A stretch of DNA of 64,000 nt from Protula sp. h YS-2021 (Eukaryota; Annelida; Polychaeta; Sabellida; Serpulidae): contig OX457028.1 in assembly GCA_949752745.1 (NCBI GenBank), positions 2,354,420 to 2,418,419 of the forward strand. The letters are read 5' to 3'. Positions within the stretch are counted from its first letter, which is position 1, and the number at the start of each line of letters is the position of its first letter. This document shows positions 3,790 to 53,520 of this stretch, piece after piece. A program made the position numbers and the translations under genes. A model generated the notes under the pieces. It saw only the letters and a program-made list of their open reading frames with translations, searched no databases and was not told where the DNA came from.

Positions 3790-4330
3790 ATTGATCAATT
3801 ATCTGAGTATATATTTTACCGATAATCAATAACCACTTTAGTTGAATCCGCACAAAGTACCCATACACGCGCCTTAAAGTCGGACTGTAGAAGCCAAATC
3901 ACACTTTGGGCATTCCAAATAAAATGCGAAAAAATTCTGCGTTTCAAATACAAACTAACCGGATTAAATGAAAGAAATGATAGAGAAATTTCACATAAAT
4001 GTCATATTTCTCTTGCACAAAAGTGAAATCGTGTTTTCAACGAACCGTACGCTATTTTAAACATTTATTTAAAGGTTTAACAAATAGTTCTCAGTTTCAA
4101 TTTCTTTTATGTTCCGAGTATGGGCTGTTTTTTTCCTATACTTCTATCATTTCTTTCATTTTTACCCCGTTCCCTTGCATTCGAAATTCAAATTTCTTGC
4201 GCATTTTATTCGAAACACGCTTCCAAGTAGTCCCAGTTGACTCCCACCTCCACAGAAGCGGTACGCTACAAAGTTTCCACGCATCGCTTCAAAGACTCGC
4301 TGTATAACACACAAGTCTCAAAGATTACGT
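3790..4330. repeat. Foldback-family fragment (left)
   Basis: Related to the foldback at 5470-6912: it shares a 'hydra-like' flank with the phrases AAGCGGTACGCTAC and a block about accession to a stop-ridden repeat near 4250-4310. The right counterpart continues at 52800-53520. No gene was recognised. The left end is cut by the DIRS insertion. Confidence 0.5.
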
Positions 4331-4339
4331 AAAGGCATG

Positions 4340-5335
4340 GATGGAGTCCTGTCTGCGTAATTGGGGTGCAAGCATGAAGATTTGCGATGCCCGGTCTGAT
4401 ACGTCAAATCAGACTACCTCCTTCCCGAGCGATCTAAAATCGGCCCGCGTGGTTACTCACAGTACACACTAAGCCCCTTGGCTCCCTCATATCATTTCTA
4501 CGCTGATGGCTCCGGACTAGAGAAAAGACTTTGATCCTAAATGCCCCGTAGAGCAACATATCACAACAAAACAGGTTGAGGATACTTTTAACGACGTTGG
4601 TGGCTGGATGACTTCGAACAAGTTAAAAGTTAAACAAAGGTTATGATTATTTCTAGTGCTCACAGTGAAAAGCTCATGAAAGTAGATTCGCTTGGTCTGG
4701 ATAATGAAGTCGTTCTGCGCTCCAATACGGTGCGTACCTTCGGGGTCCACATAAGACTTCGCCCTAGCTATGGATACGCATGTAAGTTCAGTTGTACGAA
4801 CCTGTTTTTACTACTTCACGTAGATTCGTGATGTGAAAGCAAGACTCACTGAGGATGCTACAAAGATCTTAGTTCATTCATTGATCAGTAGGATAGACTA
4901 CTGCAACAGTCTTCTGATAAATCTCCCCAAAAAAGCAAATACGGCGTCTCCAACGAATCCTCGACGAGTTGACTCGTGTAATTAAACTTTCACGCGAAGA
5001 AACAACAAATCAGAAATTAATGGTATTACACTGGCTGAGAGTTGAGCAATGAATAGATTTCAACGTTGCTCTCCTTATGCATCAAGCTCTTCAAGACAAA
5101 GCCCCATCGTATATCAAGGATATTCTGAGACCATATATCTCACGTTGTCCACTTCGGACCAACGAACAGTTATTCTTAGTAGAATGCCGCTCTGACAATC
5201 ACTATGGCGACAGGGCACTCGAAAAAAAAACGCGGCTTCGAGAATATGGAATAGATTGTCCTTATCTATTAGACGTGAAACTGACATTTTAGTGTTCAAG
5301 AGATTGTTAAAAACATATCTTTGTAAAAAAGCGTA
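4340..5335 (+). pseudogene. Decayed LINE RT C-terminal half (left copy)
   Basis: Plus-strand frames with several breaks resemble the end of an L2/CR1-type LINE ORF2. Near 4500 there is YHFYADG, a changed version of the YADD catalytic motif, then WMTSNKLKVK near 4610. Near 5030 is LHWLRVEQ followed by an in-frame stop, then IDFNVALLMHQALQDKAPSY (from about 5058), which corresponds to the conserved C-terminal LHWLP region of the family. Loss of the second Asp of the motif and the stops make it inactive. The mirror copy at 50060-50930 keeps the LHWLR segment open. Confidence 0.75.
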
Positions 5336-5469
5336 TCTAGTCTAGTCAATCAGTGATTTTACTATACACTTTAGCATGTATAGATTTATGGATTTTATTA
5401 CATTTCAATGTTTCGCTTAAGGTTTTAGCCCTTGTAGGCGCGTTACAAATACGGATTTAATATTTATTT

Positions 5470-6912
5470 GTTAAGTAAGTCAACTGCACTTGTTTTGAGG
5501 CACCCTTGTGGCTACTCTGTGCGAGATTCAACGACCCATAAGTCTTCACTGCCATTTGCTAAAGGCCCTCAAAGTGCAACGGTAATGATATACAACGTCT
5601 GTGTTATGCTTTCTTTAAAAGTAAGAAATAATACGGAAATAACCAAAAAATCTTCCGCAATAATTGGCATTTGTTTGTATCCAGGGAGCATAGTTTATTA
5701 CGTGAAAGAGAAACAATAATTTTTGTAATTATCCATCAAAAAACTTTTGAACTGATATTTCAAAAAGAACGTAAAAAATAAAACGTCAAATATTGTGGGA
5801 AAACAAAATAAATTTATACCTAGCTCTGCATTTATCAACTATTTTAGTATATATTTTACAAATAAACTATGACCCCTTTATTTAAATTTTTGGCCATGTG
5901 ACATTTAAAGGCCGGAATGTAAGCAAACATTTGACAGGTTGGTGCGGAAGCTAATTTTTCTGTACTTTTATGAACAAATAAAAAATATACAGCTCACTAA
6001 AATTGTGCCTGTTTGTAAAAAGGGTATTTTATGCATGAACTTTCAGTAAATGTTTGAATTATTGGGACTGGTATGTAGGATTCGTGCCTCAGAACATTCA
6101 AAGCTGATCCCTATTAGCGTAACAATGTAAGGCTTCGTAGCTCTGGCAGAGAGATATACATGTCAGAGCTGACTCGGAGCTAGCTCCGAGTAGCTCTAAC
6201 TTGTATAACATCGTATATCTCTCTGTCAGAGCTACGAAGCCTTCCATTGTTCCACTAATAGGGCTCAACTTCACATGTTCTGAGGCAAGAATCCTGCATA
6301 CCAGTCCGTATTATTCAAACATTTACAGAAAGTTCATGCTCAATACGCGCTTTTTGTAAAACAGGCACAGTTTTTAGTGAGCTGTATATCTTTTATTTGT
6401 TCATTAAAGTGCAGAAAAAATAGCTTCCGCATCCACCTGTCAAATGTTTGTTTACATTCTGGCCTTTAAATGTCAAGTGACTAAAGTCAAGGGACCGAAA
6501 ATTGAAATAAAGGGGTTATAGTTTATTTGGAGAATACATATTAAATAGTTGATAGACGCAGAATTACGTATAAATTTATTTGGTACACCCGCCATGTTTG
6601 ACTTTTTATGTTTACGTTCTTTTGAAATATCAATTTAAAAGTTTTTTTGGTGGATAATTGCAAAAAATTATTGTTACTCTTTCACGTAATAAAGTATGCT
6701 CCCTGTATATTAACAAATGTCATTTATTGCGGGAGATTTTGGGTTATTTCCGCATTATTTTCTTTTAAAGAAAGCGTAACACAGAAGTTGTCTATGATTA
6801 CCGTTGTACTTTGAGGGCCTTAAGCAAATGCCAATAAAAACCTATGGGTCGTTGAATCTCGCACAAAGTAGCCGCAGGGGTGCCTCAAAGCGAGCGCAGT
6901 TGACTTGCTTAT
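5470..6912. mobile_element. 1.4-kb foldback element (left copy)
   Basis: The first half (5470-6180) pairs with the reverse complement of the second half (6182-6912), giving arms of about 700 bp. The symmetry centre is the perfect palindrome CTCGGAGCTAGCTCCGAG at 6173-6190. Flanking it on both sides are copies of GAGAGATATA and GAGCTACGAAGCC. No coding frame was found. The arms differ by scattered substitutions, so the halves have diverged. Large terminal inverted repeats with almost no interior define a foldback-type element; the transposase that mobilised it is unknown. Confidence 0.85.
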
Positions 6913-7006
6913 CGTTATATAGCGAGGCTTTGAAGCGGTGCCTGGAAACTTTTTAGCGCACCGCTTCTTGGAGCTAACTCGGAGCTAGGGACTAACTTAA
7001 GAGTAT

Positions 7007-7207
7007 ATGAGCAATTTTATGTGTTCTCAAACGTACACTACACACATAATGTCAAACATTTGTAACAGACCCCCGTTTGCAAGAGATTTTTACTACCGAG
7101 GCCTACTTTATAGAATGGGTCCACAAGGACCACAGTCCCAGAAGGTTCGTCCTTACAGACCGTATTATCGCTCATTTCAGTTTCAAACCTTGTGTTGCTC
7201 ATTCTGA
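7007..7207 (+). other. Short frame kept in both arms, probably not a gene
   Basis: A 66-codon frame is present in both arms (mirror at 47917-48117) with a few residue changes. I recognise no domain, and conservation is no higher than in the surrounding non-coding sequence. It is listed because it is the only frame of note between the foldback and the 21-bp hairpin. Confidence 0.15.
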
Positions 7208-7501
7208 ACTATTTTAAACTTTTTTCAAGCAGAAATAACAGCAACCTAATATAAATTATGCTCACCTTTTGTGATTTCTGTCATATAAAAAAGTTTAAAA
7301 AATTTCCATCTCGCTCCTTCTGTTGCAATGCATTGTGGGACAGTCACGGTGTGTGGACAAACTGTCGAGGGTCGTAAATATAACTCTTCACAGTGGTTGT
7401 GGGTAACAATTTCAAATTTCGAACGATTTTTTCCTTTCAATATCTAGCGGCGGATAAAAGAGGGGTTCAGGGGTTGCGCCCCCCTAAATCCGAATAAAAT
7501 A

Positions 7502-7551
7502 GAAGTAGGGCATGCATGCGCTGACTTAAGAGCGCATGCATGCCCTACTTC
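7502..7551. repeat. Perfect 21-bp stem hairpin
   Basis: GAAGTAGGGCATGCATGCGC and one more base pair form a 21-bp perfect stem around the 8-base loop GACTTAAG. The same hairpin, without a mismatch in the stem, lies at 47573-47622. It sits beside a block rich in G and C runs (7450-7500) next to the MITE end at 7705. Confidence 0.8.
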
Positions 7552-7699
7552 CACTCTGGCTCAAGTTGAACCCCGCCCCCTCCCTTTGTACCCCAACTGA
7601 TATCTGCTCCTAGGTGAAAAAATATTTGGCTAATAAAAGGAACAGATGTTTGAAAATAGATTAATTATTTGACATTTTATCATCTGACTATCAAAACTG

Positions 7700-7890
7700 T
7701 AGAACATAGTCCAACAACCAACCTCTACGGCGGTTCGGCACGTTGTGTGTAACACCTTTTTACTCCGCAGACCCACTGGGCATTCCTCGCAAAATAGTAC
7801 TCATAAAAGAGAGGCACCACTTTTAAAAATATGTTCAAGAACCATCCTCCACGGCTGTTCGGCCTATTGTGTATAATACCTTTTTCTCTT
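7700..7890 (+). mobile_element. Fragment of long-TIR MITE family (left)
   Basis: Carries GTCCAACAACCAACCTCTA and CTCATAAAAGAGAGG, which also occur in both terminal repeats of the complete element at 25010-25735. A second partial block (CCATCCTCCACGGCTGTTCG) follows at about 7850. It has the look of an eroded copy. The mirror copy is at 47270-47420. Confidence 0.6.
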
Positions 7891-7919
7891 TCTCATTAAT
7901 TGACAATATCTTTACTAAC

Positions 7920-8600
7920 ACTTTTTGTAATGATTATTTAAATGGTGTTTTAATAAGTGATGTGAGGGTTCATCTGTGAATTTTTACTGTATGGCAAACA
8001 AAGCTAAGAAATATAAGTGATGAGGCAGTACTAGCATTTAAAAAAGAATTAGGAATCATGTAATTGGGAAAATGTATTAGCCACCTCTAATATAAATAAA
8101 GCTTATGCTATGTTTGTTGATAAATTTAAAATACAGTATGATAAAAACTGTCCATGGAAATTTGTAAGCAAAAATGTAAAACGTACACATAAGCCATGGA
8201 TGAATTTGTCTTGATAAATGTTTGCCATTAAAAGGTAAATTACACAAAAAGAATTTATTAGATGTAGAAACATAAGGATCACAAAGAACGAAAATAAGTT
8301 TAAAAAGTACACAGTTGAGTTAAATTCTATCCTAAGACATTGTAAAAGAAATATCATACTAAATTATTGGAAACACAATATGGCGATGTTAAAGGCACTT
8401 GGAAAATTTTCAATTCTATCTTAAAGCGTGAACAACAAACTACTAACTTTCCTGTCTCATTTTATAATTCAAAAGGTGTGAAAGTCAGTGGCAAAAAGCA
8501 TATTGTAAACGGATGTAATAATTTTTTTGTAAATGTAGGTCCTACTCTTGCTCAGAAAATTGAAATTGATATCATTCCAGTTTAAACTACTGCTCTCAGC
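7920..8600 (+). pseudogene. Decayed LINE fragment, endonuclease end to RT start (left)
   Basis: The open part at 8367-8585 reads TWKIFNSILKRE, then NGCNNFFVNVGPTLAQKIE, the segment that links endonuclease and RT in LINE ORF2 proteins (family pattern 'FNKFFVNVGPxLA'). Before it, stop-ridden frames near 7930 read NDYLNGVLISDV, like the end of the endonuclease domain. The RT itself is missing. The mirror copy is at 46550-47225. Confidence 0.7.
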
Positions 8601-8980
8601 TTCTTGCCGCCTGCTCGCAAATATGTTTTGCCGTGTTGTAATTGAAAAATTAATTGAATTAAAAAAATACATAAGGATGAACTAGACGTACTGAAGTTTA
8701 TCAGATCCAGATTTCATCTTTCTAGCCCTAACGGCCTCTGACTAGTTCCACGGACAAACTAAAACAAACGGAAAAACATGCCACAACTGCGACTAAAATT
8801 TTCGTACAAATTCACTACACTAGGGGATTTTGGCAAATCTAGAAGTGTAAAAGTAAGAAACTAAAGGTAAACACGCTAAAAATTGTTTACTCTATCAAGC
8901 TAGTTTATCCAGAAAGTTCATTGTGATGACTAGTGTAGCTAGCTGAGATAAAACAACAACCTCATTTCGCTAGCGAAATG

Positions 8981-9442
8981 TTAAACACTTGACAAAAAAT
9001 GCAAAAATACTTTCTTCAATGGGTTATTTCTTGAATAATATATTGCAAACAACACAGCTAGTGTTTGGTTTGTTGACTTAAGGTTTTATTGACTGCTCAG
9101 GCATACGCCATGTTATCTATTTACGCAGTGAGAGCTCGAACAAAGCTGAGCAACTGTGTGTTCTGTGCTGAGCGTTAAATGCTCCGCATTTACTTGCAAA
9201 AATACACTCTTTTCACATGACGTTTTAAACAAGAAAACAAAATCGAAGGCGAAAATAAAAAGTGTCATGTACACGTTCATATCAAGTTCTACCTAATTCC
9301 TAAGTTTCGTGGCCCTAAGACCCGTAGTTCCAGTGGAGGAGATGACACGGGAAATCCGATCACTGTCAAGAAAAAAAGATACCAACGGCTACTCGCAAAA
9401 ATTCAAAAGGCCCTTGCAAGCCAAAGGTTTGTCAAGTGTTAA
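8981..9442. mobile_element. TTAA-flanked MITE (left copy)
   Basis: Bounded by TTAA at 8981-8984 and 9439-9442, with inverted ends ACACTTGACAAA and TTTGTCAAGTG. TTAA duplication is the hallmark of piggyBac-type insertion. The interior has no long frame. Other copies: 45684-46146 (mirror) and 51779-52248 inside the hAT-like element, so the family has moved more than once. Confidence 0.75.
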
Positions 9443-10435
9443 AAAAACAGATATGGCGGAGAATATGACTTCCATATTGAAATAGCTAGCAACATTCGTG
9501 GAACTATCTGTTCTTTTACTTAAAAAACTGGCTACCTAGTAACACTTTCAAGTTGCTGGCCAACAGAAAAGAAACATATTTTTTAACATGGCGCGTCTTT
9601 GAAAGGAAAAGCAGAGTTAAATAATCGTTTTGGGTCATTTATAGCTAAATAAAGCAAACATAAAATGTCTGGCAATTAAGTACCTTTTATTTACAATGAC
9701 TTTGGAGAATCACATACCATGGTTTTAGTCACACTTCTAAAAAAGATTCTAGCACAAAAAAACTTGGATTAGCTTAAGTAATGGGGGGGGGGCGTTTGGG
9801 AACAAGTCAGTTCCATGCTAATTGTGTTAAACGCGCCAGAGGAGTACTTTATTTCTGCACGCCGAGTTTTCTGCTAAGCGATTTTTAATGAAAGGTTTTC
9901 CGAAATATTGCAAACACAATTCAAGAGTTGGTATCGGTCTAGGTTATACGCAAGTCCTAGTCAAATGCACTTAGCAGGTGAACTGTGGAAAATATATCTT
10001 TGTTCCTTGATCTAGAAATAAAAAATATCCGGGTTTATAAAAGAAAATAATGCGTTTTAACTTGGCGGTCCAGGGATATGCATGGTAATTCATATGGGAA
10101 TTTACACGGGATAGGTGAGATGCAAAAACACACAAGATAAAGTTTTTTAATCAGCATGATGCGTAATTTGTAACAGGTTGCAAAAACATCATGTGAAATA
10201 TTGCATGGTATTAAGCAGTTTTTTTAGAAAACAGAGTAGAAACAATATAGCTACTGAAATTCATGGATTATTGGTGATGGGCATAGTAAAAAATATTGCC
10301 AATGTCATTGCCAAAACTGCCAATATCCAGCACAGTAGAATAATCCGGTTATAATAGTTATAATTTCAACCCTAATTAAATAAGGTGATTCAATCCTCTG
10401 GCATCACTGGTAATAAAGAAATAAAGTCACTTTGA
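9443..10435. other. No gene seen
   Basis: AT-rich sequence with short homopolymers and a G10 run near 9783. I see no frame with domain content, no RNA gene and no element ends. It is conserved in the mirror arm (44705-45683) at the background level. Confidence 0.5.
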
Positions 10436-10523
10436 CTGATCTCCTGGGGAAGAAATGAACCTCACGGAGTATCCTTGAGCTGATCTCCTGGGGAAGAAAT
10501 GAACCTCACGGAGTATCCTTGGA
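10436..10523. repeat. 44-bp tandem duplication (left)
   Basis: Two head-to-tail units begin with CTGATCTCCTGGGGAAGAA at 10436 and 10480 and are almost identical. The same two-unit structure is at 44617-44704, so the duplication predates the split of the two arms. Confidence 0.85.
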
Positions 10524-10539
10524 GATGATTGTATAAAAT

Positions 10540-11830
10540 TTCCGCGACAATGAACAGACGAAATTAATGTTTCAATTATTTTATTCAGTTTTATCCATAA
10601 TGTACTTCGCGTTAGAAATAAGTTCCTCAGGCTTGTTCAATTTTGTTAACTCTGTGGAAACAATACGAAAATCAAGGCCTGAAATACGGAACAGAATCCT
10701 CCGAAAATACAAGAGAACCACTCGATGCAAGCGGTTGTCTTGGGCTTTTATCTGAGCCACCTCGCGGCCAACACAGTGCCTCACAGCACGGCTCTCCAGG
10801 CAGAAAGAAAAGAGCACACGCTTCCGGTATCCATGGCAACTGATCTAATTCTGGGCGTTCTTGCCTAGAAATGCCGAGGCCGTAAGGTAACGCTAATGGT
10901 CAAGAAGTGACAACAGTACATATCATCTGAGGCATTGATATTTTCTTTCCGTCAAGAGCAGGATCAATTAAGCAACAGCTCCAAGTAAACAAGGGCATAA
11001 ACAAGTCTTGGGTGGAGCTGCTGTAATATCCAGATGAAAAGGCCTCGTTGTTCCACAGAGTAATAATTACAATATCAAAACTAAATTTACTTAAAATGTT
11101 TCACGTGACATTTTTACAATTGTCGGATCCATTTTGTTTGTCATAAAGTACAATGACGTTACATACAATCCAAAGTTTATCCGTACGCAGATGATATAGC
11201 ATTTCAAAGGCTTGTAAAATCTAATGGCGTTGATAACCAAACTTAACAAGAAATAAAATGAATTTGGAAAAAGTACTGAGTTTGAATACATGTGGAAATG
11301 ATAGAAAAATGAACAGATTAACAGGAATTTATATATAATAACGAACTGTACCTGGAAGTTTATTTAGTTACAACTAGATTATACTTCAAAAAGAGCAACC
11401 TTATCGTTTTGTGATTACAGGACAAATAAATAAGTAGTTTTACTTTTAACGCTTGGCATTATACTCCTTGTTTTTCGTACATTTAAGCAGCATATTGTGC
11501 CACCGTGTCAATTCGGGCATTCCTTTCCCAAAACTTTCAGTGCAAACAGTATTATCAATTTTTGTCAGGTTAATTTTGGGGGAAGAAATGTAGTTCGAAA
11601 GCGATCTTTGTTTGCGAACGTTGTCATAATTCGAATATATATAACTTTGAGAAACCTGTAGAATTCTGCCAATTGGCCTGACGGTACCTCACTGGAACCT
11701 GAGGTAGAGTCGAAAAGCTCCAAATTGATGAGTCATACGTGTGCGCTTTTGTAGCTTATATTAGTGCTGACTGATTGGTAGTGTTCTGTAATAGTGCTGC
11801 ATGCACATCTTTTCATTAAGGACTCATTAT
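10540..11830. other. No confirmed gene; possible terminal exon
   Basis: On the minus strand at 10581-10650 a splice-acceptor-like TTTCCACAG is followed by an open stretch of about 22 codons (LTKLNKPEELISNAKYIMDK) that ends at TAA with an overlapping AATAAA. The mirror lies near 44480-44550 and differs by one residue. No upstream exon could be linked, so this stays a possibility. The rest to 11830 shows only short frames. Confidence 0.2.
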
Positions 11831-11837
11831 GGTAGAG

Positions 11838-12375
11838 TACGGTGCCACTGCCGGAGCAGTGAAGAGCACGTTGTTTCTACAAAAAAGTTAATAAAAAAGG
11901 ATGTGTTGTCGGTAAAAAAAACCGGTGCAATGACGGATGCATTATCGGTACAAAAGTGGTGCAATGATGATACCCTGAAGGTACAAAAACCGTTGCAATG
12001 CTGGTACATTTTAGGTACAAGCCGGTATAATGAAGTGTGCATTATGGATACAACACCAGTACAATGAAAGATGCATTGGACGTGCAAAGTCGGTACAATT
12101 ACCGGTGCATTGTCCTTAAAAAGCCAATGCAATGAAGGAGACTGTGTCGCTAAAAACTTGGTTAACGATGGGGCCACAAAACTAGTACAATGAAAGGTGC
12201 ATTGTCGATATAAAACCGGTAGAATGAAGTTTGTATTAAGAATGCAAAACCGAATCAATATTGATACACCATAGGTACAAAACCGCTACAATGACGAGTG
12301 TATTTTCAGTATTAAACCTGTAAAATGACTCGTGAACGGTCGGTATGAACACCGGTGCAACGAAGGGTGCATGGC
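11838..12375. repeat. 35-bp minisatellite of hairpin units (left)
   Basis: About 14 diverged units at roughly 35-bp spacing. The unit core is ACCGGTACAATGAAGG followed by TGCATTGTCGGTAC, so each unit carries the inverted pair CAATG...CATTG and could form a small hairpin. Long frames on both strands here are by-products of a repeat free of stops. The mirror array is 42555-43320, where a MITE interrupts it. Confidence 0.85.
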
Positions 12376-12479
12376 GATGCGCACTGGAATTGATGATTCT
12401 GTTGTATGTGTGTGTGAATTTGCAAATCACTGAAAATTGTGAATTATTGAATCTGCTGCAGTACTGCCATGTCAAATGA

Positions 12480-13282
12480 TCTCCTTGTATTTTTTATTTA
12501 TTTGATTATGTTCTTTAACCGTTGTTGAATCAAAAAGAATATATTTCACATTAATTTCTTCCTTTTCAGTTCCCCTGCCTTCTCAAAGAAGCTAATTTTA
12601 TTTAAAATTCAAAAATACGTCATATTGACTAAAAATAAGCCAACATTTGCTAAATTGGCTTAACTAAGTACATATATCTTCAAGCGAAAAAAAAGAAACA
12701 AAACAAAAAATCCAAAAAAAAAACATTTTAAAATATTGTTCTTGAAACTACACCGGAATTTTGTGTTTGTGAGTTTCAAGTGAATTTATAAATACTTCTT
12801 ACGCGTTTCATTTATACTTCTTATGTAATTTATGTGTACTTCCTGTGTACTTCATATGTATTTCTTATGTACTGTATACGAAGCTTTGAGGCATGAAGAA
12901 TCGAAATGAAGTGTCCCTCCTACTCCTCCGTATATAAAACATCTTTACAGTGTAATTACGACGTGAAAAAAATATGGCTGTAGATTGATATTTACTCTGA
13001 TCGTGGGAATTCCTCTGTCTGTTATTGTAATAAATGTCATAGATAAGGTTAAAAATAGACACATAATTTTTTTAACCATCTTACTGACAGAGAAATGGAT
13101 TTTTCTTTCTCTTGGGATAATGGATAGCGTTTTATGGCCCAGGCTTAGAAGGCTGAAATTAAAAAAACCCGTAGCACATAAACAAAGTAGAATAATATTT
13201 GTTTGACAACGGAGACGATTGTTGTTGTTATGTCTTTGGTTTGCGGGCATTTTAGAGGTCGAGGAAAAATTTCTATTGCAGG
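12480..13282. other. No gene seen
   Basis: AT-rich, with an A-rich block at 12690-12720 and a cluster of TTATGTA/TTCATATG-type words at 12800-12870. No domain-bearing frame was found. It is conserved in the mirror arm near 41700-42450. Confidence 0.5.
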
Positions 13283-13345
13283 GTGGAGGAGGAGGAGGAG
13301 GAGGAGGAAGAGGAGGAGGAGGAGGAGGAGGAGCGGGAAGAGGGA
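13283..13345. repeat. GGA microsatellite
   Basis: A run of GGA/GGT triplets broken by a few substitutions. At the corresponding place the mirror arm has a (TTA)n tract (41461-41590), so the two arms carry different simple repeats. Confidence 0.85.
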
Positions 13346-13369
13346 GGAGGTTCATCCCAGCCAAACGAC

Positions 13370-13965
13370 CCACCCCCATCGGCTTGCTATTCCGTGATAC
13401 TAACCCCTCCCTCCCCCTCCCCCCACCCGAGCCAGTAGCGTGGGGTGACGCTGCGCCATTCCCACCCCATCCCTTACTCCCCATCGGCTTGCTATTCCAT
13501 GATACTAACCCCTCCCGCCCCTTCCCTCACCCGAGCCAGTAGTGAGGGGTGGACGCTGCCCCATTCCCACCCCGACCCACCCCCCATCGGCTTCCTATTC
13601 CGTGATACTAACCCCTCCCTCCCCCTCCCTCACCCGAGCCAGTAGTGAGGGGTGGACGCTGCCCCATTCCCACCCCGACCCACCCCCCATCGGCTTCCTA
13701 TTCCGTGATACTAACCCCTCCGCCTCCCCTCCCCCATCCGAGTTAGTAGTGAGGGGTCGACGCTGCCCCATTCCCACCCCGCCCCCACTTCCCATCGGCT
13801 TGCTATTCCATGATACCCCCCCCCCCCCCCGCCCCGGAGTCTGTAGAAGAGTCGCCGCCGCGCTAGTCACCACTTTTCCGCGGCACTGTCTCCCTCTTCC
13901 CCGAGCCAGTAGCGACGGGTCAACGCAGCACCCCATCCCCACCCCCACTCCCCCCGGCTTACTTC
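13370..13965. repeat. ~104-bp tandem repeat, five units (left)
   Basis: The phrase CATCGGCTTGCTATTCCGTG recurs at about 13376, 13482, 13586, 13689 and 13793. Spacing is 103-106 bp. Units contain long C-rich tracts, which give proline-rich spurious frames. The mirror arm has only about three units (41090-41410), so copy number differs. Confidence 0.85.
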
Positions 13966-13989
13966 TATGTGGTCTCATGTGACCTCGAA

Positions 13990-15290
13990 TAAATCCATAT
14001 GGGCTTGTAATAAACAAGTCACAAATATCGAAAAACCCATTAAGCGTTAAGCCCATAAAATGACTTCTAAAAATATTGCCATTCCGTGTTTCAAGTGACG
14101 ACGATTAAGTGACGCTTGTTGTGGATAATGTTAATGGCTTCCCCTCGCCCTCCTCCCCCCTCCCCCTCCCCTCTCTGTCCATGCTTTGGGCGATTTTTAT
14201 TTGTTGACTCGTGCCGTAAATGACTTGTATGAGTGACGTTTTCATCGGCATGTCAACATGTCAATAATGATTGACAGTTAATTGCTATGCAAGGTCAGTA
14301 CTGTGTTTATACATTGGCTTTCTTTTATATATTGGGGGGTGGCGGGGGGGGGGGGGGAGGGCGTACGAGCTGGAATGTTATAATTCCGTTTGATAAAACA
14401 GCGTAATGCGGACACATTAATACGACACAGAGTCCGTGTTCTATTGTAAAATCCAAGACCCCGGAGGCACTGACAGTTCCCAGCCCTTCTTTTTTCCAGA
14501 TAAACATTATTTATGTGCTGGGATAGGGGTGAGGTGGGGGGGGGGGGGCTCAGAGTCGCAGTCAACACTTGTAAACATCATCTATTTCAGTGCAAACGGG
14601 AAAAAAATATAACGCTAAACCCGCTTATGTAACCCCCCCCCCCCCCCGCCTCCACCCACCCCCACCGACCCCCCACACATAAATTGCGAAATCACATGGT
14701 CTGAAAGCACACACCTGTTAAAATCGTACGTATTCAAAAACCCTCTTCTTTTCAGGTGTCTTTAGTGTCGATAACTATGGACATTGCTATTTGACAAATA
14801 TTAATTGCTTTATCCGACCATGTTCAGCAGATAAAACCAGTGGTGGTAATATCAATAATATCAATAATATCCGGCAACCAATCATGACACGTCTCACATT
14901 TCATGTTCATTTTAAAGTCAGTAAACGTTGAAATACGATCCCCCTCCACGAGTTCCAAGTGTGGGCTTTCTTTTATCTATTTTTTTCACTGTACTTTTGG
15001 GGAGAACTTCTTTATTTATGTTATAGGTTTTGTTGACAATTGCTGGCGGCTTTTACTTTTTAAATTCTCATTTGGAAGTTTTCATTTCCAAATGTGTATA
15101 TTTTACTAAACTATCCGCGAAAGTACTGTATATTCCTTTTTCCGTTTGGGTTGAAAATTTTATTTGGCGTAGACAGATGAAATTTGCCACATATACAGAG
15201 GACGAGAAAACCTTCTGAAATCCGCAATTGTTTTACCTTCACCTTCAAGGTCAAGATCGAATTGAGGCCAAAACGCTGTTTTAACTTTAA
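13990..15290. other. No gene; G/C homopolymer islands
   Basis: Contains poly-G/poly-C islands at about 14335-14360, 14535-14550 and 14633-14648, and a short run of ATCAATAAT repeats at 14850-14870. No frame here shows domain content. The mirror arm holds the same order at 39900-40990 with different homopolymer lengths. Confidence 0.5.
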
Positions 15291-15293
15291 AAC

Positions 15294-15888
15294 TGATGAA
15301 GTACACCTCTGTGAGCCGTTTTTGACTCACAGCGGGGCACTTCCTTATAAATTAAAAAGAATGATTAAATGAAATAACAAGTGTTTATTGATATAAATAT
15401 ACTAAGTGCAGTGGGGTGTACCGGGGTCTATTACGCCAAGAAAAGCATTTTGGTTATTAGACTTAAGAACGATAGTCACGTACCATACATGATCGGATAT
15501 CCACAACATAACATATATCCGAGTTTATAATTAATATAATTTCTCAATCAACGTTTTATCATTCAGATATGCGCTTCTCGATTCTCCCGTATATTATTTT
15601 CCGTAGCTTATATACTTGTAGATCCTAACAAAGACACTTATTATAAGAGTGGGTTACAAACAGGTGACAACAATCAAAGGAGTAACAAAAGGGGTTTTAC
15701 AATTATAAACATACCATAACTATTATAAACAATAGAGATACCAATTATAGTAATTCTTATGACCATGCATTATTAAGGGACGATGCGACATATATAATTA
15801 ACAATCAAACAAAACGGAGGATTATAATTACTCTAATCCTATTGATAATTGTCTGTTGGCACAAGAATTGAGTGCACAACACTGATTC
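15294..15888. mobile_element. Left-only ~595-bp insertion
   Basis: The mirror arm runs straight through this site near 39780, so the empty site is known. The inserted block lies between two copies of TGAT, a possible 4-bp target duplication. Near its start is an imperfect hairpin (AAGTACACCTCTGTGAG with CTCACAGCGGGGCACTT). It contains no long frame and I cannot assign it to a family. Confidence 0.6.
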
Positions 15889-41486: not shown

Positions 41487-41549
<63 letters not shown>

Positions 41550-42554: not shown

Positions 42555-43320
42555 CGCATCGCCATGCACCCTTTGTTGCATCGGTGTTTATACCGACAAT
42601 TCACCACTCATTTTACAGGTTTAATACTGAAAATACACTCTTCATTGTACCGGTTTTGTACCTACAGAGTATCAATATTGATTTGGTTTTGCATTCTTAA
42701 TACAAACTTCATTCTGCCGGTTTTATATCGACAATGCACCTTTCATTGTGCTAGTTTTGTGCCTACAATGTGCACATTGTTAACCAAGCTATTAGCGACA
42801 CAGTCTCCTTCATTGTATTGGCTTTTTAAGGACAATGCACCCGTAATTGTACGGACTTTGCACCTCCAATGCAACTTTTATTGTACTGGAGTGGTATTCT
42901 GCTCTATCCTTATATTTAAGGACGTCCTTATTCTTTAGATTAGATGGTTCATCCTTAATTTTTATCCTTATTTTTAAAAGACTTTGTTAAGTTTGGGGAT
43001 AGAGCAGAATAGGTTTTTTATCCTTATTTTTAAAAATAAGGACATCCTTAAAAATAAAGACAGAGCAAAATACCCCTCCTATGGTTGTATCCATAATGCA
43101 CAGTTCATTAAACCGGCTTGTACCTAAGATGTACCCAGCATTGGAGCGGTTTTTGTACCTACAGCGTACCATCATTGTACCACTTTTGTACTGATAATGC
43201 ATCCGTCATTGCACCGGTTTTTTTTACCGACAACACATCCTTTTTTATTAACTTTTTTGTAGAAACAACGTGCTCTTCACTGCTCCGGCAGTGGCACCGT
43301 ACTCTACCATAATGAGTCCT
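42555..43320. repeat. 35-bp minisatellite (right), interrupted
   Basis: Mirror of 11838-12375 in reverse orientation, with CATTGTACCGGTTTTGTACC-like units. A MITE (42893-43078) splits it. The flanking units pair with consecutive left-arm units, so the insertion came later. Confidence 0.85.
42893..43078. mobile_element. Small MITE in minisatellite (right only)
   Basis: Ends GGTATTCTGCTCTATCCTTA and, inverted, GGTATTTTGCTCTGTCTTTA form the terminal repeats. The interior has further inverted copies of TCCTTATTTTTAAAAATAAG. It is absent from the left arm at the matching position (about 12050), which gives the empty site. There is no coding capacity. Confidence 0.75.
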
Positions 43321-44616
43321 TAATGAAAAGATGTGCATGCAGCACTATTACAGAACACTACCAATCAGTCAGCACTAATATAAGCTACAAAAACGCACAC
43401 GTATGACTCATCAATTTGGAGCTTTTCGACTCTACCTCAGGTTCCAGTGAGGTACCGTCAGGCCAATTGGCAGAATTCTACAGGTTTCTCAAAGTTATAT
43501 ATATTCGAATTATGACAACGTTCGCAAACAAAGATCGCTTTCGAACTACATTTCTTCCCCCAAAATTAACCTGACAAAAATTGATAATACTGTTTGCACT
43601 GAAAGTTTTGGGAAAGGAATGTCCGAATTGACACGGTGGCACAATATGCTGCTTAAATGTACGAAAAACAAGGAGTATAATGCCAAGCATTAAAAGTAAA
43701 ACTACTTATTTATTTGCCCTGTAATCACAAAACGATAAGGTTGCTCTTTTTGAAGTATAATCTATTTGTAACTAAATAAACTTCCAGGTACAGTTCGTTA
43801 TTATATATAAATTCCTGTTAATCTGTTCATATTCCTATCATTTCCACATGTATTCAAACTTAGTACTTTTTCCAAATTAATTTTATTTCTTGTTAAGTTT
43901 GGTTATCATCGCCATTAGATTTTACAAGCCTTTGAAATGCTATATCATCTGCGTACGGATAAACTTTGGATTGTATGTGACCTCGTTGTACTTTATAACA
44001 AACAAAATGGATCCGACAATTGTAAAAATGTCACTTGAAACATTTTTAGTAAATTGAGTTTTGATCTTTTAATTATTACTCTGTGGAACAACGAGGCCTT
44101 TTCATCTGGATATTACAGCAGCTCCACCCAAGACTTGTTTATTCCCTTGTTTACTTGGAGCTGTTGCTTAATTGATCCTGCTCTTGACGGAAAGAAAATA
44201 TCAATGCCTCAGATGATATGTACTGTTGTCACTTCTTGACCATTAGCGTTGCTTTACGGCCTCGGCGTTTCTAGGCAAGAACGCCCAGAATTAGATCCGT
44301 TGCCATGGATACCGGAAGCGTGTGCTCTTTTCTTTCTGCCTGGAGAGCCGTGCTGTGAGGCACTGTGTTGGCCGCGAGGTGGCTCAGATATAAGCCCAAG
44401 ACAACCGCTGGCATCGAGTGGTTCTCTTGTATTTTCGGAGGATTCTGTTCCGTGTTTCAGGCCTTGATTTTCGTAGTGTTTCCACAGAGTTAACAAAATT
44501 TAACAAGCCTGAGGAACTTATTTCTAACGCGAAGTACATTATGGATAAAACTGAATAAAATAATTGAAACATTAATTTCGTCTGTTCATTGTCGCTCAAA
44601 TTTTACACAATCATCT

Positions 44617-44704
44617 CCAAGGATACTCCGTGAGGTTCATTTCTTCCCCAGGAGATCAGCCCAAGGATACTCCGTGAGGTTCATTTCTTCCCCAGGAGAT
44701 CAGT
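44617..44704. repeat. 44-bp tandem duplication (right)
   Basis: Same two units as at 10436-10523, inverted (CCAAGGATACTCCGTGAGG twice). Confidence 0.85.
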
Positions 44705-45683
44705 CTTTATTACCAGTGATGCCAGAGGATTCAGTCACCTTATTTAATTAGGGTTGAAATTATAACTATTATAACCGAATTATTCTACTGTGCTGGATAT
44801 TGGCAGTCTTTTGGCAATGACATTGGCAATATTTTTTACTATGCCCATCACCAATAATCCATGAATTTCAGTAGCTATATTGTTTCTACTCTGTTTTCTA
44901 AAAAACACTGCTTAATACCATGCAATATTTCACATGATGTTTTTGCAACCTGTTACAAATTACGCATCATGCTGATTAAAAAACTTTATCTTGTGTGTTT
45001 TTGCATCTCACCTATCCCGTGTAAACTCCCATATGAATTACCATGCGTATCCATGGACCGCCAAGTTAAAACGCATTATTTTCTTTTATAAACCCGGATA
45101 TTTTTTATTTCTAGATCAAGGAACAAAGATATATTTTCCACAGTTCACCTGCTAAGTGCATTTGACTAGGACTTGCGTATAACCTAGACCGATACCAACT
45201 CTTGAATTGTGTTTGCAATATTTCGGAAAACCTTTCATTAAAAATCGCTTAGTAGAAAACTCGGCGTGCAGAAATAAAGTACTCCTCTGGCGCGTTTAAC
45301 ACAATTAGCATGGAACTGACTTGTTCCCAAACGCCCCCCCCCCCATTACTTAAGCTAATCCAAGTTTTTTTGTGTTAGAAACTTTTTTAGAAGTGTGACT
45401 AAAACCATGGTATGTGATTCTCCAAAGTCATTGTAAATGAAAGGTACTTAATTGCCAGATATTTTATGTTTGCTTTATTTAGCTATAAATGACCCAAAAC
45501 GATTATTTAACACTGCTTTTCCTTTCAAAGACGCGCCATGTTAAAAAATGTGTTTCTTTTCTGTTGGCCAGCAACTTGAAAATGTTACTAGGTAGCCAGT
45601 TTTTTTAGTAAAAGAACAGATAGTTCCACGAATGTTGCTAGCTATTTCAATATGGAAGTCATATTCTCCGCCATATCTGTTTT

Positions 45684-46146
45684 TTAACACTTGACAAACC
45701 TTTGGCTTGCAAGGGCCTTTTGAATTTTTCCGAGTAGCCGTTGGTATCTTTTTTTCTTGACAGTGATCGGATTTCCCGTGTCATCTCCTCCACTGGCACT
45801 ACGGGTCCTAGGGCCACGAAACTTAGGAATTAGGTAGAACTTGATATGAACGTGTGCATGACACTTTTTATTTTCGCCTTCGATTTTGTTTTCTTGTTTA
45901 AAACGTCATGTGAAAAGAGTGTATTTTTGCAAGTAAATGTGGAGCATTTAACGCTCAGCACAGAACACACAGTTGCGCAGCTTTGTTCGAGCTCTCACTG
46001 CGTAAATAGATAACATGGCGTATGCCTGAGCAGTCAATAAAACCTTAAGTCAACAAAAACCAAACACTAGCTGTGTTGTTTTCAATATATTATTCAAGAA
46101 ATAACCCATTGAAGAAAGTATTTTTGCATTTTTGTCAAGTGTTTAA
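45684..46146. mobile_element. TTAA-flanked MITE (right copy)
   Basis: TTAA at 45684-45687 and 46143-46146 with ends CACTTGACAAACC and TTTTTGTCAAGTG. Mirror of 8981-9442, at the orthologous position. Confidence 0.75.
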
Positions 46147-46549
46147 CATTTCGCTAGCGAAATGAGTTTGTTGTTTTATCTCAGCTAGCTACACTAGTCA
46201 TCACAATGAACTTTCTGGATAAACTAGCTTGATAGAGTAAACAATTTTCAGCGTGTTAACCCTTTAGTTTCTTACTTTTACACTTCTAGATTTGCCAAAA
46301 TCCCCTAGTGTACTGAATTTGTACGAAAATTTTAGCCGCAGTTGTGGCATGTTTTTCCGTTTGTTTTAGTTTGTCCGTGGAACTAGTCAGAGGCCGTTAG
46401 GGCTAGAAAGATGAAATCTGGATCTGATAAACTTCATTACGTCTAGTTGATCCTTATGTATTTTTTTATTCAATTAATTTTTCAATTACAACACGGCAAA
46501 ACATATTTGCGAGCAGGCGGGAAGAAGCTGAGAGCAGTAGTTTACACTG

Positions 46550-47225
46550 GAATGATATCAATTTCAATTTTCTGAGCAAGAGTAGGACCTACATTTACAA
46601 AAAAGTTATTACATCCGTTACAATATGCTTTTTGCCACTGACTTTACCACCTTTTGAATTATAAAATGAGACAGGAAAGTTAGTAGTTTGTTGTTCACGC
46701 TTTAAGATCGAATTTAAAATTTTCCAAGTGCCTTTAACATCGCCATATTGTGTTTCCAATAATTTAGTATGATATTTCTTTTACAATGTCTTAGGATAGA
46801 ATTTAACTCAACTGTGTACTATTTAAACTTATTTTCGTTCTTTATGATCCTTATGTTTCTACATCTAATAAATTCTTTGTGTAATTTACCTTTTAATGGC
46901 AAACATTTATCAAGACAAATTCATCCATGGCTTATGTGTACGTTTTACATTTTTGCTTACAAATTTCCATGGACAGTTTTTATCATACTGTATTTTAAAT
47001 TTATCAACAAACATAGCATAAGCTTTATTTATATTAGAGTTGGCTAATACATTTTCCAAATTACATGATTCCTAATTCTTTTTTAAATGCTATTACTGCC
47101 TCATCACTTATATTTCTTAGCTTTGTTTGCCATACAGTAAAAATTCACAGATGAACACTCACATCACTTATTAAAACCCCATTTAAATAATCATTACAAA
47201 AAGTGTTAGTAAAGATATTGTCAAT
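46550..47225 (-). pseudogene. Decayed LINE fragment (right)
   Basis: Mirror of 7920-8600: the minus strand holds the linker segment between endonuclease and RT, with frame breaks. The RT is missing, as on the left. Confidence 0.65.
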
Positions 47226-47269
47226 TAATAAGAAAGAGAAAAAGGTATTATACACAATAGGCCGAACAG

Positions 47270-47420
47270 CCGTGGGGGATGGTTCTTGAACATATTTTTA
47301 AAAGTGGTGCCTCTCTTTTATGAGTACTATTTTGCGAGGAATGCCCAGTCGATCTGCGGAGTAAAAAGGTGTTACACACAACGTGCCGAACCGCCGTAGA
47401 GGTTGGTTGTTGGACTATGT
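47270..47420 (-). mobile_element. Fragment of long-TIR MITE family (right)
   Basis: Mirror of 7700-7890 with CCTCTCTTTTATGAGTACT and AGGTTGGTTGTTGGAC, which match the terminal repeats of the complete element at 25010-25735. Confidence 0.6.
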
Positions 47421-47572
47421 TCTACAGTTTTGATAGTCAGATGATAAAATGTCAAATAAGTAATCTATTTTCAAACATCTGTTCCTTTTATTAGCCAAAT
47501 ATTTTTTCACCTAGGAGCAGATATCAGTTGGGGTACAAAGGGAGGGGGCGGGGTTCAACTTGAGCCAGAGTG

Positions 47573-47622
47573 GAAGTAGGGCATGCATGCGCTCTTAAGT
47601 CAGCGCATGCATGCCCTACTTC
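47573..47622. repeat. Perfect 21-bp stem hairpin (right)
   Basis: The same stem as at 7502-7551 with the loop CTTAAGTC. Identical stems in both arms while flanks differ. Confidence 0.8.
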
Positions 47623-48184
47623 TATTTTATTCGGATTTAGGGGGGTGCAACCCCTGAACCCCTCTTGTATCCGCCGCTAGATATTGAAAGGAAAAAATCG
47701 TTCGAAATCTGAAATTGTTACCCACAACCACTGTGAAGAGTTATATTTACGACCCTCGACAGTTTGTCCACACACCGTGACTGTCCCACAATGCATTGCA
47801 ACAGAAGGAGCGAGATGGAAATTTTTTAAACTTTTTTATATGACAGAAATCACAAAAGGTGAGCATAATTTATATTATGTTGCTGTTATTTCTGCTTGAA
47901 AAAAGTTCAAAATAGTTCAGAATGAGCAACACAAGGTTTGAAACTGAAATGAGCGATAATACGGTCTGTAGTGACGAACCTTCTGGGACTGTGGTCCTTG
48001 TGGACCCATTCTATAAAGTAGGCCTCGGTATTCAAAATCTCTTGCAAACGGGGGTCTGTTACAAATGTTTGACATTATGTGTGTAGTGTACGTTTGAGAA
48101 CACATAAAATTGCTCATATACTCTTAAGTTAGTCCCTAGCTCCGAGTTAGCTCCAAGAAGCGGTGCGCTAAAAAGTTTCCAGGC

Positions 48185-49640
48185 ACCGCTTCAAAGCCTC
48201 GCTATATAACGATAAGCAAGTCAACTGCGCTCGCTTTGAGGCACCCCTGCGGCTACTTTGTGCGAGATTCAACGACCCATAGGTTTTTATTGGCATTTGC
48301 TAAAGGCCCTCAAAGTACAACGGTAATCATAGACAACTTCTTTACGCTTTCTTTAAAAGAAAATAATGCGGAAATAACCCAAAATCTCCCGCAATAAATG
48401 ACATTTGTTAATATACAGGGAGCATACTTTATTACGTGAAAGAGTAACAATAATTTTTTGCAATTATCCACCAAAAAAACTTTTAAATTGATATTTCAAA
48501 AGAACGTAAACATAAAAAGTCAAACATGGCGGGTGTACCAAATAAATTTATACGTAATTCTGCGTCTATCAACTATTTAATATGTATTCTCCAAATAAAC
48601 TATAACCCCTTTATTTCAATTTTCGGTCCCTTGACTGTAGTCACTTGACATTTAAAGGCCAGAATGTAAACAAACATTTGACAGGTGGATGCGGAAGCTA
48701 TTTTTTCTGCACTTTAATGAACAAATAAAAGATATACAGCTCACTAAAAACCGTGCCTGTTTTACAAAAAGCGCGTATTGAGCATGAACTTTCTGTAAAT
48801 GTTTGAATAATACGGACTGGTATGCAGGATTCTTGCCTCAGAACATGTGAAGTTGAGCCCTATTAGTGGAACAATGGAAGGCTTCGTAGCTCTGACAGAG
48901 AGATATACGATGTTATACAAGTTAGAGCTACTCGGAGCTAGCTCCGAGTCAGCACTGACTTGTATATCTCTCTGCCAGAGCTACGAAGCCTTACATTGTT
49001 ACGCTAATAGGGATCAGCTTTGAATGTTCTGAGGCACGAATCCTACATACCAGTCCCAATAATTCAAACATTTACTGAAAGTTCATGCATAAAATAGCCT
49101 TTTTACAAACAGGCACAATTTTTAGTGAGCTGTATATTTTTTATTTGTTCATAAAAGTACAGAAAAATTAGCTTCCGCACCAACCTGTCAAATGTTTGCT
49201 TACATTCCGGCCTTTAAATGTCACATGGCCAAAAATTTAAATAAAGGGGTCATAGTTTATTTGTAAAATATATACTAAAATAGTTGATAAATGCAGAGCT
49301 AGGCATAAATTTATTTTGTAAACCCACAATATTTGACGTTATATTTTTTACGTTCTTTTTGAAATATCAGTTCGAAAGTTTTTTGGTGGATAATTGCAAA
49401 AAATATTGTTTCTCTTTCACGTAATAAAGTATGCTCCCTGTATACAAACAAATGTCAGTTATTGCGGGAGAATTGTAGTTATTTCCGTGTTATTTTCTTT
49501 TAAAGAAAGCGCAACACAGAAGTTGTATATGATTACCGTTGTACTTTGAGGGCCTTTAGCAAATGCCAAACTTGTGGGTCGTTGAATCTCGTACAGAGTA
49601 GCCACAGGGGTGCCTCAAAGCAAGCGCAGTCGACTTACTT
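48185..49640. mobile_element. 1.4-kb foldback element (right copy)
   Basis: Mirror of 5470-6912, centre CTCGGAGCTAGCTCCGAG at 48931-48948. Both halves are retained. No frame. The element is a palindrome inside an arm of the larger palindrome. Confidence 0.85.
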
Positions 49641-49798
49641 AATAAATAAATCTTAAATCCGTATTTGTAACGCGCTTGCAATAGCCAAAACCCTAAGCGA
49701 AACATTGAAATTTACATAAAAACTCCACATATCGCATTTGTAGTAAAATCCATAAATCTATACATGCTAAAGTGTATAGTAAAACTACTGCTTGACCA

Positions 49799-50050
49799 GA
49801 TATTCGAAATACAGCTGAAAATTATCTGACCAAGCATACTCTTTTTTAAAAAAGATATGTTTTTAACAGTCTCTTGAACACTAAAATGTCAGTTTCACGT
49901 CTAATAGATAAGAGCAATTGACTAGATATTCGAAATATAGCTGAAAATTATCTGGCCAAGCATACTCTTTTTTAAAAAAGATATGTTTTTAACAGTCTCT
50001 TGAACACTAAAATGTCAGTTTCACGTCTAATAGATAAGGACAATCTGTTC
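49799..50050. repeat. 126-bp tandem duplication (right only)
   Basis: GATATTCGAAATA recurs at 49799 and 49925, and the 126 bases between are repeated with only a few changes. The left arm has one copy of the shared part near 5270-5345. Confidence 0.85.
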
Positions 50051-50059
50051 CATATTCTC

Positions 50060-50930
50060 GAAGCCGCGTTTTTTTTTTCAAATGGCCCTGTCGCCATAGC
50101 GATTGTTAGAGCGGCTTTCTACTAAGGGGAACTGTTCTTTGGTCCGAAGTGGGCGACATGAGATAAATGGTCTCAGAATATCCTTGATATACGATGGGGC
50201 TTTGTCTTGAAGAGCTTGATGCGTAAGGAGAGCGACGTTGAAATCTATTCGTTGCTTAACTCTCAGCCAGTGTAATGCCATTAATTTTTGATTGGTTGTT
50301 TCTACGCGTGAAAGTTTAATTACACGAGTCGATTTGTCGAGGATTCGTTGGAGACGCTGTATTTGCTTTTTTGGGTAGACTTATCAGAAGACTGTTGCAT
50401 TAGTCTATCCTACTGATCAATGGATGAACTAAGATCTTTGTAGCATCCTCAGTGAGTCTTAGTTTTACATCACGAATCCACTTTAAGTAGTAATAACAGG
50501 CTCGTACAACTGAACTTACTGGGTATCCATAGTTAGGGCACAGTCTATGTGGACCCCCGAGGGCACGGGCCGTATTGGCCGTATCATGAACTCGGTTTCC
50601 TCTTTAACTTTTAACTTGTTCGAAGTCATCCAGCGGACAACATCGTTAAGAGTATCCTCAACCTGTTCTATTGTTCTATTGATCTACGGGATATTTCGGA
50701 TCAAAGTCTTTCTCTCTAGTCCGGAGTCATCAGCGTAGAAATGATATGAGAGCTGATGTGATTGAATGAGGGAGCCAAGGGGCTTAGTGTGTACTGTGAG
50801 TAACCGTGTGGGCCGATTTTAGATCCCTCGGAAAGAGCGCAGTCTAATTTGATACTATCAAACCGGGCATCGCTAATCTTCATGCTTGCACCCCGATTTC
50901 GCAGACAGGACTCCATCCATACCTTTGCGT
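50060..50930 (-). pseudogene. Decayed LINE RT C-terminal half (right copy)
   Basis: Mirror of 4340-5335. The segment at 50078-50281 is open and reads LHWLRVKQRIDFNVALL, so the stop seen in the left copy at this place is not shared. Other parts are broken, and the RT core is not recoverable by eye. L2/CR1-type by its C-terminal motif. Confidence 0.75.
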
Positions 50931-51546
50931 TATCGTTAAGACTTGTGTGTTATACAGCGAGTCTGTGAAGTGATGCGTGGAAACTTTGTAGCGTGCCGCT
51001 TCTTGGAGCTAAGTCCATCACCATCACCACCCTTCTACTCTGTTGAGGTGGGAGTTGCACCAGAATATCACTTTTGATTGACTCATGTACATAACCTTGT
51101 AAAAACCATCAATAAAAGCGTGTTTTAAGGTCAAGTGTGTTCTCTTTCTATCGTGATTATTTAAATAAAAAAAAATCGATTTAAATAAAACAAAAATAAA
51201 TAAAAAAGCATGATTTAAAAAAAAAATCATGATTTTTACCAGCCCTGGACTCAACAGAAACTACTCGTAAGCGTGATCACACTGGGTGTTTCGAATAAAA
51301 TGCGCAAGAATGTTGAATTTCGAATGCAAGGGAACGGGGTAAAAATGAAAGAAATAGTAGAAGAAATATAGGAAAAAAAACAGCCCATACTCGAAACATA
51401 AAAGAAATTGAAACTGAAGACTATTTGTTAAAACTTTTAATAAATATTTAATATGGCGTACGGTTTGTTGAAAACACGATTGCACTTTGGTACAAGAGAA
51501 ATATGACATTTATGTGAAATTTCTCTATCATTGCTTTCGATAGTTT

Positions 51547-52782
51547 CAGGGTTGGCAGGTTTCTCCCATTAGGGTTTTTACCCTGGGTTAAAACCAGGTT
51601 TTTACCCCAGGGGAGAAATACGTTTCTCCCACAATTTCTGCCGTAGTTCCTCCCCTCTTTTTATTTATTTATTTTTTTGTCTTGCTTAACATACACGTGA
51701 GAATAGACGTAAGAATAAGTAAGTTCATACATTCGAAAGTGCGAAACCGATTAGGCAATGATAAAGCCGCCAAGCTAGTTAACACTTGACAAGCCTTTGG
51801 CTTGCAAGAGTTATATGAATTTGTGCGAGCAGCCGTGACACTTTTTTCCGATTTTTTGTGTCTTCTTCTTCTCTGACACTATGAGCCGTAGGACCATGAA
51901 ACTTGGGTCTTATGAAGAGCTTGAACTGAAAGTGTGCCTGTCACTTTTTATTTTCGTCTTTGATTTCGTTTTCTTTGTTAAAACGCCATGTGAAAAGAGT
52001 GTTTGCAAGTAAATGCAGTGCATTTAACGTACATCACAGAACACAGTTGCTGAGCTCTGTGCGAACTCTCACTGCGTAAATAGATAACACGGCGTATGCC
52101 TGCTCAGTCAATAAAACCTTAAGCCAACAAAAACCAAACACTACTGGGCTTATAAGACGTATTCAAGCTGTGTTGTTTGCAATATATTATTCAAGAAATA
52201 ACCCATTGAAGGGAGTATTTTTGAATTTAATTTTTGTCAAGTATTTAACATTTCGCTAGCGAAATAAGGTTCTAGTTTTCTGCTATGATGCTATGCTTCG
52301 ATGATCAAATGAGATTGATTACTAAGTGCAACTTAAATGATTGATTCGACTACTTCACTGTTCCGCCTTCAGGCAGACTGGTCTATGCATCAACAGTTTA
52401 AAGAAAGTTTTGAAATATTATATGGATTTTGGTTAAAATGCATAGTGTGGATTTTTACGAAAAACTTTTTTCTGGTAGAGTCAGCTTTGAGAATCGAATG
52501 AGCGAGTGAAATATATGACAAATTGGATTAAATGATTGACATTTCTCATGAATCAATGTGTGTTTGTGTAATGAACAGTTTAAGAAAAATCGGAAGTGTT
52601 AAAATAGCAAATAATTTGGAATAAAATGCAAAATAAAGGTTGAAATATGTTTTATGCCCGACGTTTCTCCCCTGTTTCTCCCCCATTTATCCCCGGGAGA
52701 GAACCTAAATCCCGGGTTTTTCCCCTATTTCTCCCATGGGGAGGGGAGAAATACCTTTATCCCTGGGAGAAACCCAACCCTG
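51547..52782. mobile_element. hAT-like non-autonomous element (right only)
   Basis: Begins CAGGGTTGGCAGGTTTCTCC and ends, inverted, CAGGGTTGGGTTTCTCCC. It is flanked by GATAGTTT (51539-51546) and GTTAGTTT (52783-52790), an 8-bp duplication with one mismatch. CAGGG-type ends and 8-bp duplications are the hAT hallmark. The left arm has a single GTTAGTTT at the corresponding point near 3955. Subterminal TTTCTCCC repeats fill both ends. No transposase frame is present. A TTAA MITE is nested inside. Confidence 0.8.
51779..52248. mobile_element. TTAA MITE nested in the hAT-like element
   Basis: TTAA at 51779-51782 and 52245-52248, ends CACTTGACAAGCC and TTTTTGTCAAGT. Diverged relative of 8981-9442. 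It was carried along with, or inserted into, the hAT-like element. Confidence 0.7.
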
Positions 52783-52799
52783 GTTAGTTTGTGTTTGAA

Positions 52800-53520
52800 A
52801 CGCAGAATTGTTTTCGCATTTTATTCGAAATGCCCAAAGTGTGATTTGGCTTCTACAGTCCTACTTTAAGGCACGTCTATGGGTACTTTGCGCGGGATTC
52901 AACTAAAGTGGTTATTGATTATCTGTAAAATATATACTCAGATAATTGATCAATTAATTTGTTTACCCACATTATTTATCTTTTATTTTTTCCCCCATGC
53001 TTTCTGAAATATCAATTCAAAAAGTTTTTTTTTGTCGGAAAATGTATATTGCCACCTTTTCACATAATAAACCATGCCCCCTGTATGTAAACAAATTTCA
53101 GTTATTACGGGAGAATTGTGGGTATTTCCGTATTCTTTTCTTTTAAAGAAAGCGCAACACAAAAATTGTATTTTATTGCCGTTGTACTTTGACGGCCTTT
53201 GTCAAATGCAAATGCAAAGTAAATAAAAAAAAATCAAAGTGGGTCGTTGAATTTCACACTTGCCTATAGTTATAAAGCGAGGAATTGAAGCGCTCCGCTG
53301 AATCCCAGTAGCGATTCACTTCTTGGAGGTAGCTCCGAGTCAGCCTTTCCGTGCGCTACTCCGTATATCAGAGCTACGAGGCCTTCTCATGTCTAGCTAA
53401 AAGAGGTCAACTTTAGAAGTTCTGAGGCTCGAACCCTGCATACTATCCTCTATTATGCAAACATATACTCAAAGTTCATAAAATTCATGTGTTCATTTAA
53501 TATTTCTTTTGCCTATAAGT
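52800..53520. repeat. Third foldback-family copy (half)
   Basis: Shares TTTCCGTATTCTTTTCTTTT, TGGGTCGTTGAAT and AGAGCTACGAGGCCTTC with the 1.4-kb foldbacks, but more diverged and with only one half recognised. The DIRS in the left arm sits in the matching copy near 3789. Confidence 0.6.

Follow-up and report, generated by a model that had tools for sequence, protein, structure and literature searches.

The large inverted duplication in the 64,000-nucleotide stretch that we analyzed (the window, C5:2354420-2418419 of an 863-Mb, 218-contig assembly) is very probably, with a probability of about 0.9, a scaffolding artefact in which two haplotypes of one locus stand side by side and one of their contigs, contig A, is reversed. 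The sequence comparisons suggest a course of events in which the animal, a diploid with very high polymorphism, carried two versions of the locus and the assembly would have given each haplotype a contig of its own. Both would have been retained on the scaffold, where contig A would have been put beside contig B, its allelic counterpart, and turned the wrong way round. Once flipped, contig A would begin with 11.6 kb of unique sequence, then overlap the first 21 kb of contig B and end inside a mobile repeat that is absent from contig B at that point. The locus would hold one ankyrin gene, not two, and no palindrome; the inverted pair is most likely not a genuine genomic feature. Positions are given in window coordinates, in which values of 0 or less denote scaffold sequence to the left of the window, and we included 100 kb of flanking sequence on each side.

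The layout of the locus is set by two gaps of 200 N, the spacer usually written by the scaffolder YaHS. One gap separates contigs A and B (35640..35839) and the second is found 12.4 kb to the left of the window (-12560..-12361), where it separates contig A from its left neighbor, contig P. Contig A (-12360..35639), with a 200-N gap at both ends, is exactly 48,000 bases long; so round a length would arise by chance about once in 1000 cases, by our reckoning, and suggests a cut made by software. It carries the left arm of the repeat (3789..24044, + strand) plus the entire so-called spacer (24045..35639, +), and contig B, gap-free for at least 138 kb, starts with the right arm (35840..52955, - strand). 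Given the two gaps, the arms are never together on one gap-free contig, and the placement of both arms and spacer on one such contig, as expected of a true palindrome, was not found. The available part of one source (PMC9516828) names as marks of heterotype false duplications an assembly gap that separates the copies and the presence of the other haplotype on small unplaced scaffolds; half read depth over both copies, discordant linked reads and heterozygous single-copy k-mers are further marks. The first of these, here the 200 N at 35640-35839, favors the reading as two haplotypes.

The inverted repeat is present in the assembled sequence far beyond chance. As originally predicted, some 17-20 kb occur twice in opposite orientation: positions 3789-24044 (+) pair with positions 52955-35840 (-), and the best block (6,672 columns at 97.2% identity) scores 11,234 bits, compared with at most 34.4 bits when the right arm was dinucleotide-shuffled 20 times. 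The right-arm alignment starts at base 35840, the first base of contig B, in agreement with the prediction that the second arm begins directly after the gap. We counted divergence in 20 alignment blocks that we selected among the BLAST matches (on the contig A side, 14 in the window and 6 to its left), a count that omits unalignable stretches and tandem repeats such as the one at 13.3-13.8 kb and includes a few bases at block joins twice. By this count, 739 of 17,234 aligned bases (4.3%) differ. The differences form a mosaic, with 0.7% in the ankyrin gene, 0.9% in the last 225 bases before the gap, and 2.1-2.4% across 5.4-12 kb; a further 15 blocks range from 3.9 to 10.1%, and the outermost block reaches 14.1%. 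Divergence is higher and more uneven than the difference of about 3% outside the gene that had been proposed. Two aspects of the mosaic speak against haplotypes: the divergence of 3.9-14.1% in 16 of the 20 blocks is high for alleles, and contig B starts in the most similar part.

The two versions also carry different insertions, another predicted feature that the alignments confirmed. The largest insertions found only in the left version measure 5,344, 3,710, 3,300, 967 and 589 bases and those found only in the right version about 1.24 kb, 196 bases and 193 bases; smaller insertions and tandem-repeat length differences occur in both. The 5,344-base element (-1555..3788, with 1..3788 in the window; - strand) has terminal and internal inverted repeats, a layout from which we take it to be DIRS-like. 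Contig B has an empty site at 52952/52955, with A -1556 pairing with B 52952, A 3789 pairing with B 52955, and AATT at both sides. The element's 502-aa stop-to-stop open reading frame (1945-3453, - strand) had no Pfam match and one homologue at E 1e-10. Among the best 40 of 1,846 candidates scored in a search for this element, the five other copies listed end at 3790-3792 and the 35 further matches represent a dispersed repeat at about 3885-4100, within the arm. Position 3790, originally taken for the outer edge of the arm, is thus the edge of an A-only element, and homology resumes left of the window. A 3,710-base A-only insertion also faces an empty site in contig B (53169/53173). That these two large outer interruptions are confined to contig A and have empty sites in contig B, and that contig A is itself bounded by 200-N gaps, favors two haplotypes.

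Inside the arm, the 3.3-kb left-only insertion (16465..19764, - strand) is a non-LTR retrotransposon with endonuclease and reverse transcriptase domains; a 1,071-aa stop-to-stop open reading frame (16589-19804) lies nearly entirely within it, and the named homologue among its matches, from Patella, is 40% identical. The 589-base insertion (15292..15880) has ACTGAT at both flanks, the 967-base insertion occupies 19882..20848, and the 1.24-kb right-only insertion (51539..52781) has inverted ends of CAGGGTTGG type. Seven other open reading frames had no Pfam match at E 0.001, and searches with Rfam (gathering scores) and ARAGORN (bacterial settings) returned no matches. Both versions share a 1.4-kb element (5472-6911 and 48213-49641) that has an inverted-repeat structure of its own (84%) and relatives in contig P near -83062.

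The outer end of the homology lies well to the left of the window. Contig B sequence at 52956..57007 (- strand) is homologous in pieces to contig A from -1556 to -9118 and weakly to -9177. Five of these pieces lie between -5,485 and -9,118, interrupted in both contigs by smaller insertions and by repeats of differing length. Strong homology stops at A -9118 / B 56954, and a weak match of 72 columns extends to A -9177 / B 57007. This is also the edge of a young high-copy repeat (95-98% identity): among the best 40 of 2,462 candidates scored, all 39 other copies listed end at -9,178..-9,172, and 37 of the 39 at -9,178..-9,176, three more matches being weak and partial. The left end of contig A falls within the same repeat family, for it matched 39 other places at 96-100% identity over at least 598 of 600 bases and two further places weakly (best 40 of 3,117 candidates scored). 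No such mobile repeat is present in contig B near 57 kb. The shared block is therefore bounded by the first base of contig B on one side and by the terminal repeat of contig A on the other. With contig ends and insertion edges as its limits, we saw no natural duplication edge such as would mark the arms of a true palindrome, and the block reads as a suffix-prefix overlap. Both edges at contig ends would not be expected of a true palindrome. Assemblers do sometimes break within real duplications, so the position of the contig ends is not proof. Still, a block that ends at the first base of contig B and at an A-only repeat cut by the end of contig A itself favors the reading as haplotypes.

The 11.6-kb spacer, the rest of contig A, is best read as sequence that lies beyond the start of contig B. 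We searched the genome with two stretches of it and found no second copy of 24045-27000 (best 40 of 5,349 candidates scored) or of 34866-35639 (best 40 of 307 candidates scored), a result that favors two haplotypes; the other matches to both stretches span up to about 245 bases and represent dispersed or simple repeats. Contig P was considered as a continuation of the spacer and rejected: among its matches to contig A of at least 150 columns, three represent one dispersed repeat of contig P and one spans 205 columns at 70.7% identity. The spacer also contains perfect TA runs of 73 units (27291-27436) and 45 units (30255-30344).

A second gene points to haplotype splitting at this position. NDUFB10 is normally a single-copy gene. 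Contig P terminates within its last exon, and the exon continues on an unplaced scaffold of 32,942 bases (C179). A profile search of the genome placed NDUFB10 on contig P and on C179 and nowhere else (8 of 8 candidates scored), with a first exon containing one stop on contig P and three exons without stops on C179. The two are 90.9% identical over 483 aligned bases, similar to the arms, and 75% identical over the last 525 bases of contig P, where exon-like copies differ. The copy on contig P (-13784 to -12561) has single-base deletions in the exon and several exon-2-like copies. These deletions and the stop are what one would see if the gene on contig P were a damaged paralogue instead of an allele, as it could be. 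Judged from the sequences, C179 is probably the other haplotype, pieces of both haplotypes seem to have been retained here on the C5 scaffold, and haplotype splitting at the locus is likely. The division of NDUFB10 between the chromosome (C5) and an unplaced scaffold is thus a further argument for two haplotypes. As a bridge to contig A, C179 was rejected because it was not among the matches to spacer stretches 24045-27000 (best 40 of 5,349 candidates) and 34866-35639 (best 40 of 307), and no scaffold therefore proves the flipped order. It was also not among the matches listed for the left end of contig A (best 40 of 3,117 candidates), which says little. Two kilobases of C179 that we compared match contigs A and B in low-complexity stretches only.

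The ankyrin-repeat gene that gives the locus its apparent inverted pair encodes 459 aa, with an intact frame in the putative haplotype-A copy (22446..23825, - strand) and in the putative haplotype-B copy (36059..37438, + strand). The copies differ at nine codons, four of them synonymous and five nonsynonymous (the five amino-acid differences between the proteins), with a dS of about 0.012 and a dN of about 0.005. These are the only two close copies among 18 matches listed for the genome, the next being 32% identical (best 93 of 319 candidates scored), which favors one gene in two haplotypes. The protein has a homologue in Capitella (31%), which, together with the Patella homologue of the retrotransposon, suggests that the DNA comes from an annelid or another lophotrochozoan. 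It also matches 341 sequences of solved structures, the 60 listed being for the most part designed ankyrin proteins or general ankyrin-repeat proteins.

We consider any real duplication at the locus unlikely. The better form of it is a true inverted duplication, a palindrome of more than 21 kb with the 11.6-kb spacer, whose arms diverge by mobile-element insertion as conversion keeps the gene alike. Such a palindrome would be older than several of the mobile-element insertions, with conversion holding the ankyrin gene near-identical as most of the remainder drifts by 2-14%, a combination to which we give only a slim chance. Conversion would account for a gene and 225 bases beside the gap (0.7-0.9%) that are far more alike than most other blocks, for a synonymous divergence of just about 0.012 and for intact frames in both ankyrin copies. 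The long palindromes of mammalian Y chromosomes likewise consist of inverted arms around a spacer and preserve the similarity of a gene, and they are continuous in reads. The locus studied here resembles them in its inverted arms, spacer and similar gene copies but departs from them in that its arms belong to different contigs and that we saw no natural outer boundary. A palindrome would require, moreover, that the right arm stop precisely where one contig ends and that the left arm leave the other contig at its end, within a repeat; the two arms also share no gap-free contig. Slimmer still are the prospects of a real direct (tandem) duplication with contig A scaffolded backwards, in which the true order of reversed A then B, with both copies real, would yield the same suffix-prefix geometry, yet the junction would have to fall exactly in the gap, and NDUFB10 (contig P and C179) shows apparent haplotype splitting at this very locus.

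Two haplotypes of one locus, the explanation that the original prediction put first with a true palindrome left as the alternative, are favored over these alternatives by the suffix-prefix geometry, the lack of a second copy of the two spacer stretches and the split of NDUFB10 between C5 and C179. The contig ends, the homology map, the insertion edges and the copies located by search are direct observations; from them we infer that the copies are alleles, that contig A is flipped and that the scaffolder was responsible for its orientation. The case resembles heterotype false duplication, as described in the available part of PMC9516828, in that two diverged, probably allelic versions of a locus stand on one scaffold with a gap between them and a probable false gene gain, and in the small unplaced scaffold, here C179, that probably carries the other haplotype. 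It differs in that the second version is also opposite in orientation and mimics a palindrome. Scaffolding by YaHS chooses the orientation of a contig by contact score, and the accessible portion of its description includes misoriented contigs, termed inversions, among the types of scaffold error and notes that the program can also cut contigs (PMC9848053). Contig A, read as flipped, is like such a misoriented Hi-C contig, although the scaffolder used here may differ from the one in that partial account (PMC9848053). Gene counts, palindrome catalogues and inversion calls made on this assembly would err at this locus, where a single ankyrin gene would be entered as two inverted copies. A check that needs the sequence and no reads is to ask whether the edges of a putative duplication coincide with contig ends and the borders of insertions, and whether the apparent palindrome becomes a suffix-prefix overlap once the contig is flipped.

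Contig P contains further repeats. A 24-bp minisatellite of about 143 copies (3.4 kb, -17207 to -13784) lies just before the exon-2-like NDUFB10 copies and also occurs on C179; we rejected it as an allele of the minisatellite at 55114-55270, since the unit differs. A 3.2-kb inverted repeat (97%) lies on this one contig with no gap (-39009..-35808 and -24500..-21289). Farther left, two adjacent direct copies of 3,948 bases (-73260 to -65364), 99.92% identical and with no gap, are either the product of a tandem duplication that is very recent or a further artefact of the assembly.
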